Of a stretch of DNA of 27,276 bases, positions 7,984 to 18,994 are shown in pieces (the stretch's first letter is position 1; every line of letters begins with the position of its first letter). The stretch is taken from positions 1 through 27,276 of the IMG/VR virus record IMGVR_UViG_3300020472_002243; one strand, given 5' to 3'. The notes below the pieces were generated by a model. The model had not been told where the DNA came from, made no database searches, and saw nothing but the letters and a program-made list of their open reading frames with translations. The stretch is from a virus. The translations under genes were made by a program, and so were the position numbers.

Positions 7984-8901
7984 ATGTCATTCGCAGAATT
8001 AAAGAAAAAATCCAGTAGCAATTTTCAATTCCTTCAGAAGGAACTAGAGAAATCATCATCAAACAGTAATGCTGATGATAGATTTTGGAAACCAGAAGTT
8101 GACGCAAGCGGTAACGGTTATGCAGTCATCAGATTTTTACCAGCACCAGATGGTGAGACAGTACCTTGGGCAAAGTTATATTCACATGCCTTTCAAGGAA
8201 CAGGTGGTTGGTACATTGAGAACAGTCTCACAACATTAGGTGAGAAGGATCCAGTAGGTGAAGTCAACCGCAGACTATGGAACAGTGGTGAAGATGCAGA
8301 CAAAGATACTGCACGTAAGCAGAAGCGTAAGCTTTCATACTACAGCAACATCTATGTTGTAAAAGATCCAAAGAACCCTGAGAACGAAGGTAAAGTATTC
8401 TTATACAAGTATGGGAAGAAGATCCATGACAAGATCCTTGCAGCAATGCAACCTGAGTTCCAAGATGAGACACCAGTAAATGTGTTTGATCTTTGGGAAG
8501 GTGCTAACTTCAAGTTAAAGATTAAGAAAGTAGCAGGTTACTGGAATTATGACAGCAGTGAGTTTGATAGTGTGTCTGCTCTTAGTGCAGATGATTCTGA
8601 ACTGGAAGCAACATGGAAGTTGGAGCACTCTCTCGAAGCGTTCACAGCGAAAGACAACTTCAAGTCCTACGATGACCTCGAAGCAAGATTGAATCTTGTT
8701 TTAGGTACTAGTCAACGTAGACAAGCAGCACCTGTTGCTGAAGAACTTGAGGTTCCTATCACTGCACCACCAACAGCAAGTGTTACTCCTTCATCTTTCA
8801 GAGAGAAGGTAGGTGCTTCTGCTAGTCCAGTTAAGAAGGAAGCAGTCGTTGATGATGACGATGCACTATCTTATTTTGCATCACTAGCATCTGATGACTA
8901 A
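7984..8901 (+). CDS. 32: Single-stranded DNA-binding protein gp32
   Basis: 305 residues, close to T4 gp32 (301). It coats ssDNA in replication, recombination and repair. The basic N-terminal LAST-like segment (ELKKKSSSNFQFL), the central OB-type core with GYAVIRFLPAP and YYSNIYVVKDPKNPENEGKVFLYKYG, and the acidic C-terminal tail (DDDDALSYFASLASDD) that contacts partner proteins are all present. The protein has no cysteine at all, so the zinc site of T4 gp32 is missing; the corresponding region reads GEKDPVGEVNRRL. ATG 7984 has no Shine-Dalgarno and sits at the end of a G-free leader, which suggests translational self-control as in T4. Confidence 0.96.
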   Translation: MSFAELKKKSSSNFQFLQKELEKSSSNSNADDRFWKPEVDASGNGYAVIRFLPAPDGETVPWAKLYSHAFQGTGGWYIENSLTTLGEKDPVGEVNRRLWNSGEDADKDTARKQKRKLSYYSNIYVVKDPKNPENEGKVFLYKYGKKIHDKILAAMQPEFQDETPVNVFDLWEGANFKLKIKKVAGYWNYDSSEFDSVSALSADDSELEATWKLEHSLEAFTAKDNFKSYDDLEARLNLVLGTSQRRQAAPVAEELEVPITAPPTASVTPSSFREKVGASASPVKKEAVVDDDDALSYFASLASDD

Positions 8902-9544
8902 TACAGTTGACCTCTGGGTCAACTATAAAAAAGTTCTTGATGATGTTTTCCCTGAGTTTAAATTTGATTCACGGTGGTGTGAGTGGACAGGTAAAGGTGG
9001 TATGCAATTAACAGCAGACATCTTTACTGCTCCGCATTTTATAAAGTCAAGACGAGTAGATATCTACAATAAAAAATGTGATATCTATAACAATGTAATC
9101 TATCCTAAGACAGGGAGTTATCTTCCCTGTTTCGGGATGGATCTCATGGGTTTCCATGAAAAGAAAGTCATCATTGTATTTGACTTCCAACATCCAGTTG
9201 AAAAGTTTTTATTTTCTTTACCTAATTTACCTAAAGCAGAAAGAGACTACAGGTTCTTTGAGATGGGCAACCATTTTTCAGAGAACATTTTTGTTAGGTA
9301 CTGTACCTTTGATGAGGTTGATAAATATCTACCAGAATTCAGAGAGTACCTTGAAACTTATCGTAGTATGATTGATGAAGCACTACCAACTGGTGAGGAC
9401 ACATCATTCTATAAAGACTTTGATATTTACATGAAGAAACTTGATCCTATCTTAGGATATATGACAGGCATCTTCGGTAAAGAAAATGCTGACAGAATGA
9501 TGGACGAGTTCTTTTTCTCTTATGCCGATGAAAACAGCAGGTGA
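8894..9544 (+). CDS. pebS: Phycoerythrobilin synthase (ferredoxin-dependent bilin reductase)
   Basis: 216 residues. It closely follows my memory of cyanophage PebS: NVIYPKTGSYLPCFGMDLMGF, VIIVFDFQHPVEKFLFS, YRFFEMGNHFSENIFVRYC and the final KLDPILGYM. The two catalytic aspartates of PebS match D83 (GMDLM) and D184 (KLDPIL). PebS reduces biliverdin IXalpha in two ferredoxin-driven steps to phycoerythrobilin, joining the host PebA and PebB reactions in one enzyme. Related enzymes (PcyA, PebA, HO partners) are less similar in these blocks. It overlaps the end of gp32 by 8 nt, so it should be made from the same mRNA. No heme oxygenase gene is visible nearby. Confidence 0.9.
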   Translation: MTNTVDLWVNYKKVLDDVFPEFKFDSRWCEWTGKGGMQLTADIFTAPHFIKSRRVDIYNKKCDIYNNVIYPKTGSYLPCFGMDLMGFHEKKVIIVFDFQHPVEKFLFSLPNLPKAERDYRFFEMGNHFSENIFVRYCTFDEVDKYLPEFREYLETYRSMIDEALPTGEDTSFYKDFDIYMKKLDPILGYMTGIFGKENADRMMDEFFFSYADENSR

Positions 9545-13943: not shown

Positions 13944-14567
13944 ATGGCAAAGATGGGAGCAGCAGGGGGAATGTCCCTTACTACTTCGTATCGAATTAAA
14001 TTTTCTAGAGCAGGTGGCACTAATGATGGGATAATGATGATGTGTGATGAAGCACAGTTACCTAACGTACAAGCTGCTACTGCACAGATGTCAGGTAGGT
14101 ATCTTGGTGAAGGTCCGTTTCAGTATCCACACACTAGATTGTTTACTGATGTGTCTCTAGGATTCTTATGTGATGCACAGTTAACGCAGTTAAAGTATTT
14201 TCAAGTTTGGTATGATGAAATATTTGGTGCTAATAATCAACATTTTATAAAGGATAAGGCAACAGTTGAAGAGATGCATGGTACTGGAACACCTAATAGA
14301 TTCAGAACAAATAGATTAAATTATCCAGCAAATTATACTGCTACCACATATATCACAAAGGTTGAACAAAGAGCAACAGATGTACCATCAATCACATATA
14401 TGCTTGAAGGTTCTTATCCTTATGCTATTGATGCTGTTCCCTTGTCATATGGATCGTCTCAAGTTACTAGAGTGAATGTTAATTTCCATTATGTTAGACA
14501 CTCAATGATTTATAGTAATGGAATGGGTGGACTCACAGGAGCAGAGACACAGGTTTTTAACGACTGA
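13944..14567 (+). CDS. Tail tube-like / baseplate tube initiator protein (gp54- or gp19-like)
   Basis: About 207 residues from ATG 13944 (MAKMGAAGGMSLTTSY); alternatives are ATG 13953 and 13968, the last with a GGGGGA sequence before it. The blocks SYRIKFSRAGG, DEAQLPNVQAATAQMSGRYL and GPFQYPHTRLFTDVSLGFLC resemble the tail-tube fold of gp19 and gp54, and its position next to gp48 (opposite strand) and gp26 fits gp54, which starts tube polymerisation on the gp48 cap. gp54 is favoured but I cannot separate it from a gp19 paralogue by eye. The upstream frame extension overlapping gp4 is rejected. Confidence 0.75.
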   Translation: MAKMGAAGGMSLTTSYRIKFSRAGGTNDGIMMMCDEAQLPNVQAATAQMSGRYLGEGPFQYPHTRLFTDVSLGFLCDAQLTQLKYFQVWYDEIFGANNQHFIKDKATVEEMHGTGTPNRFRTNRLNYPANYTATTYITKVEQRATDVPSITYMLEGSYPYAIDAVPLSYGSSQVTRVNVNFHYVRHSMIYSNGMGGLTGAETQVFND

Positions 14568-14640: not shown

Positions 14641-14664
14641 AGTCGCATATATAAATATACGACT
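14641..14664 (+). promoter_or_regulatory. Late promoter inside an inverted repeat
   Basis: TATAAATA at 14650-14657 is an exact T4 late box 20 nt before the gp26 ATG. It is centred in an imperfect palindrome, AGTCGCATAT (14641-14650) against ATATACGACT (14655-14664), with one mismatch and a 4-nt centre. No -35 box is seen. It should drive gp26 and the tail operon. Confidence 0.72.
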
Positions 14665-14677
14665 TGAATTAGTTTTT

Positions 14678-15391
14678 ATGGCATTACCGAAACTTGGGTA
14701 TCCCACCTATGAATTAGAATTACCTTCAAATGGCAAAACAGTAAAATATCGACCATTTTTGGTAAAAGAGGAAAAAGTACTTTTATTGGCTTTAGAGTCA
14801 GAAGACGAAAAACAGATTACATCTGCTGTTAAGGATTTAATCAAAAATTGCGTTATTTCGAGAATTAAGGTAGATTCGCTACCTTTGTTTGATTTGGAAT
14901 ATCTGTTTTTGAGGATTCGTGCTGCTTCTATTGGAGAAACCATCACTTTGACTGTAACGTGTCTTGATGATAATGAGACAAAAGCAGAAGCACGTATCAA
15001 TATTGATGATATTAAGGTTTTTAAGCCAGAGGGTCATTCTACCAAAATTGCGTTAACTGATGAAATGGGTATTGTGATGAGATATCCAGGTATGCAAAGA
15101 TTCGTTGAATTAGACTTTTTACAGAAAGAATTGAATGCAGAGGAAGTTTTTGAATTAATCGCAGAAAGTATAGATCAGATATATGAAGGCGAGGAGGTTT
15201 ATGATTCAACTACTACTACAAAGAAGGAATTCCGCACATTTGTAGATGGTTTGACTACTAAACAATTTGAGTCAATTCAACAATTCTATCAAACTTCACC
15301 TAAATTGAGTCATACCTTTACAGTGGTAAACCCTAATACTGGAGTGGATTCGGAATATACAATTGAGGGTCTACAGAGTTTTTTCGCATAG
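14678..15391 (+). CDS. 26: Baseplate hub protein gp26 / tail assembly chaperone G-type
   Basis: 237 residues. The start (ALPKLGYPTYELELPSNGK, YRPFLVKEEKVLLLALESED) and LPLFDLEYLFLRIRAASIGE are typical of the T4 gp26 (T4_baseplate) family. T4 gp26 is 208 residues and belongs to the hub assembly set. The gene ends AGT TTT TTC GCA TAG: the T-TTT-TTC heptamer is a canonical -1 slip site two codons before the stop, and the -1 frame stays open into the 15427-15573 ORF, so a fusion of 298 residues is possible. This is the layout of G/GT tail assembly chaperones, which sit just before the tape measure gene. Confidence 0.9.
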   Translation: MALPKLGYPTYELELPSNGKTVKYRPFLVKEEKVLLLALESEDEKQITSAVKDLIKNCVISRIKVDSLPLFDLEYLFLRIRAASIGETITLTVTCLDDNETKAEARINIDDIKVFKPEGHSTKIALTDEMGIVMRYPGMQRFVELDFLQKELNAEEVFELIAESIDQIYEGEEVYDSTTTTKKEFRTFVDGLTTKQFESIQQFYQTSPKLSHTFTVVNPNTGVDSEYTIEGLQSFFA

Positions 15392-15418
15392 CACTCTTCC
15401 ATAATAATTTGGAAGGGT
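15365..15418 (+). other. Programmed -1 frameshift signal in gp26
   Basis: Parts, in order: a Shine-Dalgarno-like GAGGG at 15365-15369; the slippery heptamer T TTT TTC at 15379-15385 (in gp26 phase AGT TTT TTC); a 7-nt spacer; a 9-bp stem 15393-15401 (ACTCTTCCA) with 15410-15418 (TGGAAGGGT), one G-T pair, 8-nt loop. The order and spacings copy the E. coli dnaX signal. The -1 frame has no stop from 15382 to 15573. The right arm also holds the GGAAGGG that would serve as ribosome site for ATG 15427. Confidence 0.82.
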
Positions 15419-15426
15419 ACTATAGA

Positions 15427-15573
15427 ATGAATTTTGCTCTGATGCAGTACCATAAATACAGTTTGACAGAAGTAGAAAATTGGATGCCTTGGGAACGTGA
15501 AGTTTATGTAGCGTTTTTAATGCAATATCTCGAAGAAGTCAAACAAAAGCAACAACAAGCACAGAATGGCTAG
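15427..15573 (+). CDS. T-domain-like ORF downstream of gp26 (48 residues)
   Basis: 48 residues from ATG 15427. The sequence MNFALMQYHKYSLTEVENWM then PWEREVYVAFLMQYLEEV is helical and resembles the T extension of tail assembly chaperones. The same frame upstream of ATG is also coding-like (RIALFHNNLEGYYR joined to MNFAL), which suggests that translation normally enters by -1 frameshift from gp26. Independent initiation is possible because GGAAGGG lies 9 nt before ATG, though it would be held in the hairpin. Its end overlaps the next start by 8 nt. A CATAAATA lies inside at 15451-15458. Confidence 0.8.
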   Translation: MNFALMQYHKYSLTEVENWMPWEREVYVAFLMQYLEEVKQKQQQAQNG

Positions 15574-18500
15574 GTACTCTGCAACATATAGTGGTGATAC
15601 TACCTCTTTTATCGGGGGTAAGATTGCTAGTGCTGCTGGTATGGCCAGAAATGAATCAGAGGCACAGGAGAAGGATAGACAAGCTGGTCTGAATGTTTCA
15701 AATAGTGGTAATTTATTCATTAAAGCATTAGGAAGTGAATTTGGTGGAGATTTATTTGCCAGAACAATAGGTGTTTTTAATCCAAAGCAATCTGCTGCAC
15801 AAACTGATAGAGCTTCTAATAAAGCAAGTAGATTTGCAGCAAATTTCCCTAGAACAGAAAAGAAGGAAGACCAAGACGTAAAAAAGTCTAGTAGAGAAGT
15901 TGATCGTGCTAAGGATGAACTTTTAAGAGATGATGATCACATACCAGTAAAAGATGAAAAACTAAGGGATTATGTTACCCGTGTTTTTGGTGTTGGTATA
16001 GATTCAAAATTAACACAAGTAGATGCTAGAGTAAATAAGGGTTTAGGTGTATTATCTGATATAAGACAATCACATGAGACTAATATCAATCTCATGATTG
16101 ATCATAATGAGTTAATTGCAGGTAAACTTGATAAAATATTGGAATTGTATAGTGAACAATATCAATATCAGACAGGATTAAAAGATAAAGCAGAAGCAAG
16201 TAGGACGGCGAATGAGTTAGCAAGGAGAAAAGATTTATCTATAACTAGACGTTATGGTGCTCTTGATCCAATGGGAGGAATGGGTGGAATGCTTGGTGGG
16301 TTAACTGATAACCTTGTCAAAAAGTTAGTAAAACGTTTGCTTGATAAGGCTAGAAAATCTAAACTTTTAAATAAATCCCAAGCTACTCTATTAGAGACAA
16401 TTTTAACAAAATCATCTACTAGAGCAGCTACTGGTGCAACTGCAACTGCTGCTTTAAGAAAAGCAAGGAAAGATCTAGCAGTAGAGTTTGCAACAGAACT
16501 AGCAGCAGAACGAGCTAGGACAAAGGCAATTGGTGAAAGTTTCTCAGCAGCAACTAGAAGTTCTGGAGCACTAGACTCATTAGCATTAAAACCTAAAAAA
16601 GCAGTAAAAACTACTGCTCAAAATGCACTTAGGAAACTTAGTATAAAAGAATTAACACCGTTCCTTACAAGAGACTTTTTGGAAATGTTTCCAGGATCAA
16701 CTCCATTAGATATGTTAAAATCTATGGAAGGATTTTTGAAAATGGGTGGAGATTTTGGAGGTGGATCTGCTGGTGCTGATACAGTTATTAGACCTTTTAA
16801 GGAATCTGCTATTGCAATGACTCAGAGTAGTAATCCAAAAATTGCAGATGCAGGTAGAGCTCTAATTAATGAAATCCAACAGTTTGCTCCAGGTGCGATT
16901 AAACTTGATGATCTAATTATTGGTGCTGATGCTCTTAGAGTAAAAAAACCAGCTACTGAAGTAGTAGGAGCTGGAACTCCTAAAATGGCGAAGGCATTAT
17001 CAGGTTCTGTTGCTGAAACAGCAGGTAAGAAAATAGCAACTAAAACAGGTGCAAAAGCATTAGCAAAGACTGGTAAGTTTGTACCTGGAGTTGGTACAAT
17101 GATAGCTCTTGGAGAAGCAGGTTATAGATTGGGTGCAGGTGATACTACTGGTGCAATTTTAAGTTTATTGAGTGCTATACCTATCTTAGGATGGGGTGTT
17201 ACTGCTCTTGATATTGGTAGAGATTTTGGATTCAATCCACTTGGGTTGCCACCTCCACCAGAAGAAACCCAGAGTAATCTTGGTGGTTATTATGAAGCTG
17301 GTACTTCTATGTTAACCGAACCAGGAGTTAAAGTACTACATGGTGATGAGAAAGTTCTTGGTGTGGATCCTGGAACTGGTATGACAACAGATCATATTCA
17401 AAATATTGGTGACAGTATAGTATCTGCTAGTGCTAAAATGGCACAAGATCTTGCTGTCAGTAGGGATGTCGCTAATTCAATTTCGAGTCTACCTTTTACT
17501 GTAAAGAGAGTAAATTATAGCACTGGTATAAAGACTGGTCCAGTAAAATCTAGAAGTGATACACAAAGTATATTTGATGTGCAAGGTGATATCAGTAAGT
17601 TTAAGAAAGAAGCTGAAACTGCTACTGATGATCCTAGAGAGGAGCAGGCTGATAGTGCTTTAGAAAACCAAGAAAGGCAAGATAGTCGTTGGTTAACTGA
17701 CCCTAGAAGACATTTTAATTTTGGTAATGGTGGTAATAGTAATATTTCAGCAAATAGTCCTCTTTTAGCACAACAAGGAGATACAACTATACAATTTCAT
17801 GGTCAACAAGGTAGAGATTTGTCTGGAGAACCAGGTGTCGATTTTAGTTATGGTGATTATAGAAATAATTACAATTTATTTGATGGTACAGTTATAGAAA
17901 CAGGATTATTATATGGTAAAAATTATGGTAACGTAGTAGTAGTTAGAAGTACTGATCCTAGTAATGGAAAACAATTTGATGCTTTATATGCACACTTCCC
18001 TGATGGTGGAATTTATGTTAAACCAGGAGATCGTGTGACTGGTGGTGCTATTCTTGGTAAGGTTGGGTTTGTGAGTGTAAGTAAGCCTGGAGTTCCAGAA
18101 TTACAACCAAATAATGCTGGTAACATGTCAGGGTGGCATACCAGTGTTGATTTCTTTGAGCCTGGTAGTGCTGCACGTTATTCTAATGCAGATAAAATAA
18201 TGAATTTAGTTTTATCTTCTAATGGATTAAAACCTAATAATCTTCTACAAAAATTAGCAATTACACCAGTTGAGGAAGCAGTTCCTAGTTCAATGAATAG
18301 TATTGTTGAATATTATACTGGTGATCAGACTCATGCAAATTGGGAACCATATTTACATGATGGTGGAAGAGAGCATGAACATTATGGATTTACTAATAAA
18401 GAAGAAAGGGATCGTGCAATAAAAGTCCTAGAAGCACATGGAATTATAGTTAATCCTGGTGGTGAACCTGGTGATCATACAGAAGGATCATTACATTATG

Positions 18501-18994
18501 AAGATAGAGCAATTGATGTTCAGTTTGGTCCTCATGTGGAGCAAGATAGATTTGACTGGATTAGACAATTGATGGGTACAAAATCAAGACATCGGTTCAC
18601 AGATGATGCAGCAGGTGAAGAAGAGTTTGCTCAATTTATAAGACAAATATTGATTGACAATAACTTCACTGGTATAACTCAAGATGAAGTTGGTTCAGAA
18701 CATTTTGAACAATTTGGTACTCATGACTCTGAGAGATTCAATGATTTAAGTGATCCTTTCTTAAATAAGCAAAAAGAAACTTGGAATATTCCTGAGCATT
18801 TACATAAGAGAAATCTAGAATTACAGAATAAAAGCATGCTTTTAGATGAATTAGAGACTGAAGCTGCGAATAGAATTCAGATTGTTGTGTTAAATAATAC
18901 TGTAGTGAACCAGACAAATAACGAAAGGAAATTTGTTAACGTTTCTGGTGGATTAAATATGGATTTCTTTAGAATGGCAAAACTAGCAGGATAA
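15566..18994 (+). CDS. Tape measure-like virion protein with degenerate M23 and M15-like domains
   Basis: 1142 residues. The N-terminus (MARYSATYSGDTTSFIGGKI) and the PVKDEKL block are shared with the next protein. Residues about 240-450 are helical and Ala/Lys rich; 503-558 is a Gly/Ala hydrophobic stretch (VPGVGTMIALGEAGYRLGAG), as in tape measure proteins; LHGDEKVLGVDPG near 590 echoes their C-terminal HGxE motif. Residues about 745-870 look like an M23 (LytM) domain with H810 (YAHF) and H858 (GWHTSVDF), but two of the usual ligands are lost (HLH is HTS; HxGxD is EPGVD). Residues 930-1050 hold SLHYEDRAID (H977, D984) and EHF (H1046), like M15 peptidases. Placement after the chaperone genes argues for tape measure; structural role is an inference. 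Confidence 0.75.
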   Translation: MARYSATYSGDTTSFIGGKIASAAGMARNESEAQEKDRQAGLNVSNSGNLFIKALGSEFGGDLFARTIGVFNPKQSAAQTDRASNKASRFAANFPRTEKKEDQDVKKSSREVDRAKDELLRDDDHIPVKDEKLRDYVTRVFGVGIDSKLTQVDARVNKGLGVLSDIRQSHETNINLMIDHNELIAGKLDKILELYSEQYQYQTGLKDKAEASRTANELARRKDLSITRRYGALDPMGGMGGMLGGLTDNLVKKLVKRLLDKARKSKLLNKSQATLLETILTKSSTRAATGATATAALRKARKDLAVEFATELAAERARTKAIGESFSAATRSSGALDSLALKPKKAVKTTAQNALRKLSIKELTPFLTRDFLEMFPGSTPLDMLKSMEGFLKMGGDFGGGSAGADTVIRPFKESAIAMTQSSNPKIADAGRALINEIQQFAPGAIKLDDLIIGADALRVKKPATEVVGAGTPKMAKALSGSVAETAGKKIATKTGAKALAKTGKFVPGVGTMIALGEAGYRLGAGDTTGAILSLLSAIPILGWGVTALDIGRDFGFNPLGLPPPPEETQSNLGGYYEAGTSMLTEPGVKVLHGDEKVLGVDPGTGMTTDHIQNIGDSIVSASAKMAQDLAVSRDVANSISSLPFTVKRVNYSTGIKTGPVKSRSDTQSIFDVQGDISKFKKEAETATDDPREEQADSALENQERQDSRWLTDPRRHFNFGNGGNSNISANSPLLAQQGDTTIQFHGQQGRDLSGEPGVDFSYGDYRNNYNLFDGTVIETGLLYGKNYGNVVVVRSTDPSNGKQFDALYAHFPDGGIYVKPGDRVTGGAILGKVGFVSVSKPGVPELQPNNAGNMSGWHTSVDFFEPGSAARYSNADKIMNLVLSSNGLKPNNLLQKLAITPVEEAVPSSMNSIVEYYTGDQTHANWEPYLHDGGREHEHYGFTNKEERDRAIKVLEAHGIIVNPGGEPGDHTEGSLHYEDRAIDVQFGPHVEQDRFDWIRQLMGTKSRHRFTDDAAGEEEFAQFIRQILIDNNFTGITQDEVGSEHFEQFGTHDSERFNDLSDPFLNKQKETWNIPEHLHKRNLELQNKSMLLDELETEAANRIQIVVLNNTVVNQTNNERKFVNVSGGLNMDFFRMAKLAG

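Follow-up and report, generated by a model that had tools for sequence, protein, structure and literature searches.

The window, the whole 27,276-base stretch analysed here (virus record IMGVR_UViG_3300020472_002243), carries T4-like cyanophage genes for a gp32-type SSB, PhoH, gp53, gp48, gp2, gp4, a tail tube protein, gp26, and a gp5-type hub lysozyme. The gp26 gene product matched PF12322 (E 3.5e-72) and phrog_150 (E 5e-81), and the ORF in the -1 frame at the 3' end of the gene matched phrog_634 (E 4e-26). The zero frame of gp26, read from the window, ends GAG GGT CTA CAG AGT TTT TTC GCA TAG. The -1 frame is free of stops from just 5' of the slip site to its own TAG, and a gp26-gp51 fusion would have 236 + 62 = 298 aa. 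The features of this region are listed in Table 1. The heptamer, the GAGGG element, the stem, the open -1 frame, and the 298-residue fusion were all found as described in the initial annotation. The sequence TTTTTTC occurs 8 times in the whole window against 8.0 expected, so that the motif by itself proves nothing; its conservation is what exceeds chance. An Rfam search at the frameshift site gave no match.

Table 1. Features of the gp26-gp51 region and its neighbours, in positions of the window.
Feature	Position	Strand	Remarks
Tail tube-like protein	13950..14567	+	PF23849 Phage_TTP_2, E 4.5e-49; phrog_45 tail tube, E 1e-28; 5' of gp26
gp26, putative TAC-N (G-type tail assembly chaperone), zero-frame product	14678..15391	+	237 aa; PF12322, phrog_150
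Shine-Dalgarno-like stimulator GAGGG (predicted)	15365..15369	+	9-nt gap to heptamer
Slip heptamer T_TTT_TTC, predicted tandem tRNA-Phe slippage	15379..15385	+	In correct phase; conserved in relatives
Zero-frame stop TAG	15389..15391	+	One codon past slip site
3' hairpin, predicted to be stimulatory	15393..15418	+	9-bp stem 15393-15401/15410-15418, 8-nt loop, 7-nt spacer
Possible outer extension of 3' hairpin	15388-15391/15420-15423	+	
Putative TAC-C (T-type) extension in -1 frame	15385..15573	+	62 codons (15385-15570), stop TAG 15571-15573; usually annotated as separate gene gp51
Next gene, candidate tape measure protein	15566..18994	+	1142 aa, M23-like segment; assigned from position

The AF2 model of gp26 (pLDDT 92) retrieved the HK97 tail assembly chaperone 2OB9 first of 350,542 PDB chains; the match was weak (E 0.35, probability 0.93, TM 0.27 by query), and the resemblance of the predicted fold to this chaperone is suggestive. 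A sequence search for a solved structure found none, and no solved structure matched the C domain in a fold search. The 1142-aa gene matched Peptidase_M23 (E 2e-6, just under its cut-off) and had no match to tape measure families in profile searches. Its candidacy as the tape measure gene comes from the order tube-TAC-TMP, and the arrangement of tube gene, gp26, gp51, and large gene fits a tail module. When tail length is considered, a scale of about 0.15 nm per residue suits the 933-aa product of the short-tailed relative S-N03 (138 nm) but not the 1565-aa product of S-CREM2 (reported tail 418 nm). The large genes after gp51 encode 1565 and 1456 aa in S-CREM2 (L123:14937-24008), and the corresponding ones in S-N03 encode 933 and 722 aa, both shorter. 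Tape measure length may be set by more than one gene in these phages.

The close-relative set comprised 80 IMG/VR relatives (49-78% protein identity) and the window, 81 sequences in total, which were reduced to 73 by dereplication at a 90% threshold. The slip site reads TTT TTC in 81 of 81 close relatives, with an invariant heptamer, and the stop follows after one codon in 79 and after two codons in 2 of them. In all 81, the -1 frame enters the homologous 'gp51' domain, two contigs ending inside it. Within the dereplicated set, Phe-Phe at the slip site is encoded by TTT TTC in 73 of 73 cases versus 3 of the 62 Phe-Phe pairs at other places in these genes, which are mostly TTC TTT. The codon just before has T in third position throughout, whether it encodes Ser, Asn, Ala, Asp, or Gly. 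At the sequence level, this synonymous codon choice shows strong selection for the slip codons. Alignment of gp26 3' ends, proposed in the initial annotation as a check, revealed that the heptamer, the stem, and the open -1 frame are kept across cyanomyoviruses and beyond. Stops in the -1 frame or loss of the heptamer in close relatives, which it had named as evidence against frameshifting, were both absent (no stops in 73 of 73, heptamer in 81 of 81).

Upstream of the slip site, AGGG was found at a spacing of 8-9 nt in 67 of the 73 relatives and was absent in 6. The motif was defined after inspection, and Glu-Gly pairs within the same genes were used as the control: AGGG occurs in 67 of 67 such pairs upstream of the slip site versus 11 of 40 elsewhere. 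By these counts, synonymous codons show strong selection for AGGG 8-9 nt 5' of the slip site. With a loose set of Shine-Dalgarno-like motifs, 68 were seen versus 68 expected, giving no excess; the stricter AGGG test alone was positive. Shine-Dalgarno elements stimulating -1 frameshifting sit 9-14 nt upstream (review, PMC5009743).

The window hairpin has a minimum free energy of -15.9 kcal/mol, with z of -4.9 against dinucleotide shuffles and -4.7 under a control in which the -1 frame protein was kept and synonymous codons were resampled. With the same control, the stretch just 3' of the slip site had a mean folding z of -2.97 +/- 0.20 (n = 72 relatives); the other gp26/gp51 segments ranged from -0.75 to +0.22, except for an overlapping one at -2.28. 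This control shows strong selection for RNA structure just downstream of the slip site only. Three lineages use different stems, each with covariation or compensatory changes. In close relatives forming the window's group, stem pair 9-32 is C-G or G-C; the second group alternates between GGUCC/GGACC, GGUUC/GAACC, and GAUCC/GGAUC; the third has G-U to U-A and U-A to A-U changes. The fraction of paired cells was 0.93-0.99 in the three groups and lower in every slid register, these percentages being inflated because the groups were picked after viewing the folds; the group-free z test is not inflated by the post hoc grouping. The layout corresponds to a dnaX-like three-element -1 signal, with an X_XXY_YYZ heptamer in gp26 of the window and its close relatives, a Shine-Dalgarno-like element expected 9-14 nt upstream (9 nt in the window, under synonymous selection), and a stem-loop a few nucleotides downstream, present in the window and selected among relatives.

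A wider HMM-based survey of all fetched loci yielded 204 distinct gp26-family ORFs. An in-phase TTTTTTN heptamer is present in 177 of these genes (156 with C, 20 with T, and one with G as the last base), and the -1 domain was detected in 175 of the 177 heptamer-bearing loci, the other two showing a -1 ORF on inspection. The slip site and a homologous -1 frame also occur in distant phages of Caulobacter, Rhizobium, Sinorhizobium, Vibrio, Aeromonas, Cronobacter, Stenotrophomonas, Acidovorax, Xanthomonas, and Pelagibacter. In Cronobacter phage S13 (L087:4711-4875) and Salmonella phage heyday (L110:2301-2450), the C domain is unannotated and exists only as an unlisted -1 frame. The exceptions to the heptamer among the 204 genes form two groups, Tevenvirinae (T4-type coliphages) and Ackermannviridae. 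The genes of Ackermannviridae lack the heptamer, reading NNT TTC ATT TAA or similar, but retain the C domain in the -1 frame. The loci L110, L111, L112, L119, L089, and L090, from Ackermannviridae and relatives, have a -1 C domain with no X_XXY_YYZ, e.g., GAG ATT TTC ATT TAA, and L110 and L112 additionally lack an overlapping ATG. Slippage of a single tRNA at T_TTC is perhaps the route to the C domain in gp26 of this type. Viral contigs scanned with Ackermannviridae-type gp26 gave no match.

In most GenBank records, e.g., those of S-PM2, S-CAM3, and P-SSM2, gp51 is annotated as a separate small gene. Such a gene would have to rely on ATG 15427 as its start or on termination-reinitiation, and the heptamer would be incidental. 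The GGAAGGG placed before ATG 15427 in the window agrees with this reading, as do a -1 frame ATG 5 nt past the gp26 stop in 39 of 73 relatives and overlapping TGATG/TAATG in several distant phages. However, an ATG is found at the codon of 15427 in only 5 of 72 relatives, and a separate 'gp51' is therefore not the conserved product. No -1 ATG lies within 30 nt of the gp26 stop in 24 of 73 relatives, yet the stretch from the slip site to 15427 is without stops in 73 of 73 and has a pN/pS of 0.35, which bears out the earlier description of this pre-ATG stretch as coding-like. In the 20 relatives without an ATG at -1 codons 0-14, pN/pS is 0.27, i.e., coding constraint exists before any ATG. For the -1 frame, values were 0.35 (codons 3-13) and 0.17 (codons 15-39), versus about 1.2 or more in other frames, which are stop-rich. 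The GGARGGG hairpin arm persists in relatives that have no ATG there (L001, L004, and L006-L008), and GGAAGGG before ATG 15427 is thus better read as the hairpin 3' arm. The invariant TTT TTC, the AGGG spacing, and the selected stems are also left unexplained by a separate gene. An independent start was rejected as the conserved route to gp51, and we consider the separate-gene reading very improbable. The initial annotation had further suggested that frameshift and internal start may exclude each other; with ATG 15427 so rarely present, this is not a conserved design. Since a -1 ATG lies 5 nt after the stop in the 39 relatives mentioned, some free C domain could arise there by reinitiation. 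It is conceivable, though unlikely, that in many relatives the stop, AGGG, and the hairpin form a two-way signal splitting ribosomes between slippage and reinitiation and giving N, NC, and C. If so, the window's clade, without an ATG 5 nt after the stop, would make the fusion only.

Two further explanations of the frame break were considered and rejected. The six to seven consecutive T residues present at all slip sites speak for transcriptional slippage, in which mRNAs longer or shorter than the gene would bring the C domain into frame; but the strict codon phase, AGGG at the spacing of -1 stimulators, and the covarying 3' stem, placed at ribosomal spacing, point to slippage of the ribosome, and the usual site has T6 plus C, which is short for slippage by bacterial polymerase. 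We consider transcriptional slippage very improbable. The window being a metagenome-derived virus record, the frame break might also be put down to faulty sequencing or assembly, or to decay of a once fused gene, but the break is shared by 175 distinct loci, including independently sequenced cultured phages, and its conservation refutes this reading, to which we give practically no credence.

We conclude with high confidence that gp26 encodes TAC-N and, by -1 programmed frameshifting, a predicted 298-residue TAC-NC, i.e., a G/GT-type tail chaperone pair; this central claim of the initial annotation is supported by the comparative tests of the heptamer, the stem, and the open -1 frame. A ribosome translating gene 26 would reach T_TTT_TTC, where in a fraction of passages two Phe tRNAs would re-pair one base upstream. 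The majority of ribosomes would read GCA-TAG and release the 237-aa gp26 (TAC-N), and the slipped fraction would add 62 codons in the -1 frame to give the 298-aa gp26-gp51 fusion (TAC-NC). If the pair works as gpG and gpGT do in lambda, N would coat the tape measure protein in many copies, and a few NC molecules would use their C domain to recruit tail tube subunits. We infer the slippage itself and the chaperone action from the sequence, its conservation, the selection on codons and RNA structure, and the homology presented here.

Window gp26, T4 gp26, and T4 gp51 all match PF12322/phrog_150, and the T4 gp51 C-terminus and the window -1 ORF match phrog_634. T4 gp26 and gp51 are paralogs, both matching PF12322 (E 9e-64 and 4e-52) and each other directly (BLASTP E 2e-6). 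In T4 gp51, a gp26-like N part and the C domain (phrog_634, E 1e-23) share one reading frame; T4 thus encodes N and NC as separate genes. T4 has two genes and no slip site (gp26 ends ...TTC TTT GAG..., and gp51 is a fusion), whereas the window has one gene with a predicted frameshift. In the T4 locus (L081:5303-6729, genes 26 and 51), the ancestral slip-site FF survives in gp26 as non-slippery TTC TTT (GLKEFFELL). With T4-like TACs, the window shares the protein family of T4 gp26/gp51 and the poly-T slip site ending TAC-N. Vladimirov, Gautam, and Davidson reportedly stated in a 2022 abstract that frameshifting is conserved in several T4-like groups. A 2016 review described the frameshift as conserved in long-tailed phages 'except T4' (PMC5009743). 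In some T4-like phages, a short gene and a fusion gene replace frameshifting, according to the PRFect paper where it cites Vladimirov et al. 2022 (PMC10885494), and a passage of PMC12846349 attributes to Vladimirov et al. 2022 (Virology 566:9) the poly-T slip sites that T4-like phages carry in TAC-N genes.

In lambda, gpG forms a coat on the tape measure, gpGT recruits the tube protein through its T domain, and the N:NC ratio is 30:1 (PMC5009743). The window resembles lambda gpG/gpGT (Xu, Hendrix & Duda 2004) in having a short/long chaperone pair, predicted to arise when ribosomes slip by -1 close to the 3' end of ORF1, after the tail tube gene; its slip site is a U-run with the stop one codon later, and the comparison is one of layout. 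The E. coli dnaX cassette has a Shine-Dalgarno-like element, heptamer, and stem-loop in the same order, but the gene is unrelated, its slip site is A_AAA_AAG instead of T_TTT_TTC, and the shift shortens the dnaX product whereas it would lengthen that of the window. The Vandenendeviridae TAC (phage Adele, PMC12846349) also combines a -1 frameshift with a conserved poly-T (GTTTTT) ending TAC-N, its C part being usually a separate hypothetical gene; it belongs to another phage family and is likened by layout.

For T4-like phages, poly-T -1 frameshifting is not new, as it was already proposed by Vladimirov et al. 2022 according to the passages citing them (PMC10885494, PMC12846349), and the window gene is therefore a strong further case of a phenomenon known from these accounts. 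This analysis adds the three-part signal, its covariation, and the evidence against the annotated gp51 start; the stem and AGGG evidence may be additional to the earlier work. A single tail assembly chaperone gene most likely lies behind two old but little understood cyanophage annotations, 'baseplate hub subunit gp26' for one half and 'baseplate hub assembly catalyst gp51' for the other; listing gp51 as a free-standing gene would be a misannotation in most cyanophage records examined. One family would have two solutions to the same need, a frameshift or, in T4, gene duplication plus fusion. Reporter studies could draw on the many natural variants of this compact three-part -1 signal.

The sequence TATAAATA, a T4-type late promoter -10 motif, lies at 14650-14657, 20 nt 5' of gp26, and also occurs at 1484, 4601, and 7697, its count in the window not being above chance. 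The window also has a ferredoxin oxidoreductase-like gene (8894-9541; phrog_7278, E 2e-58); its family is listed among those for auxiliary metabolism or host takeover.
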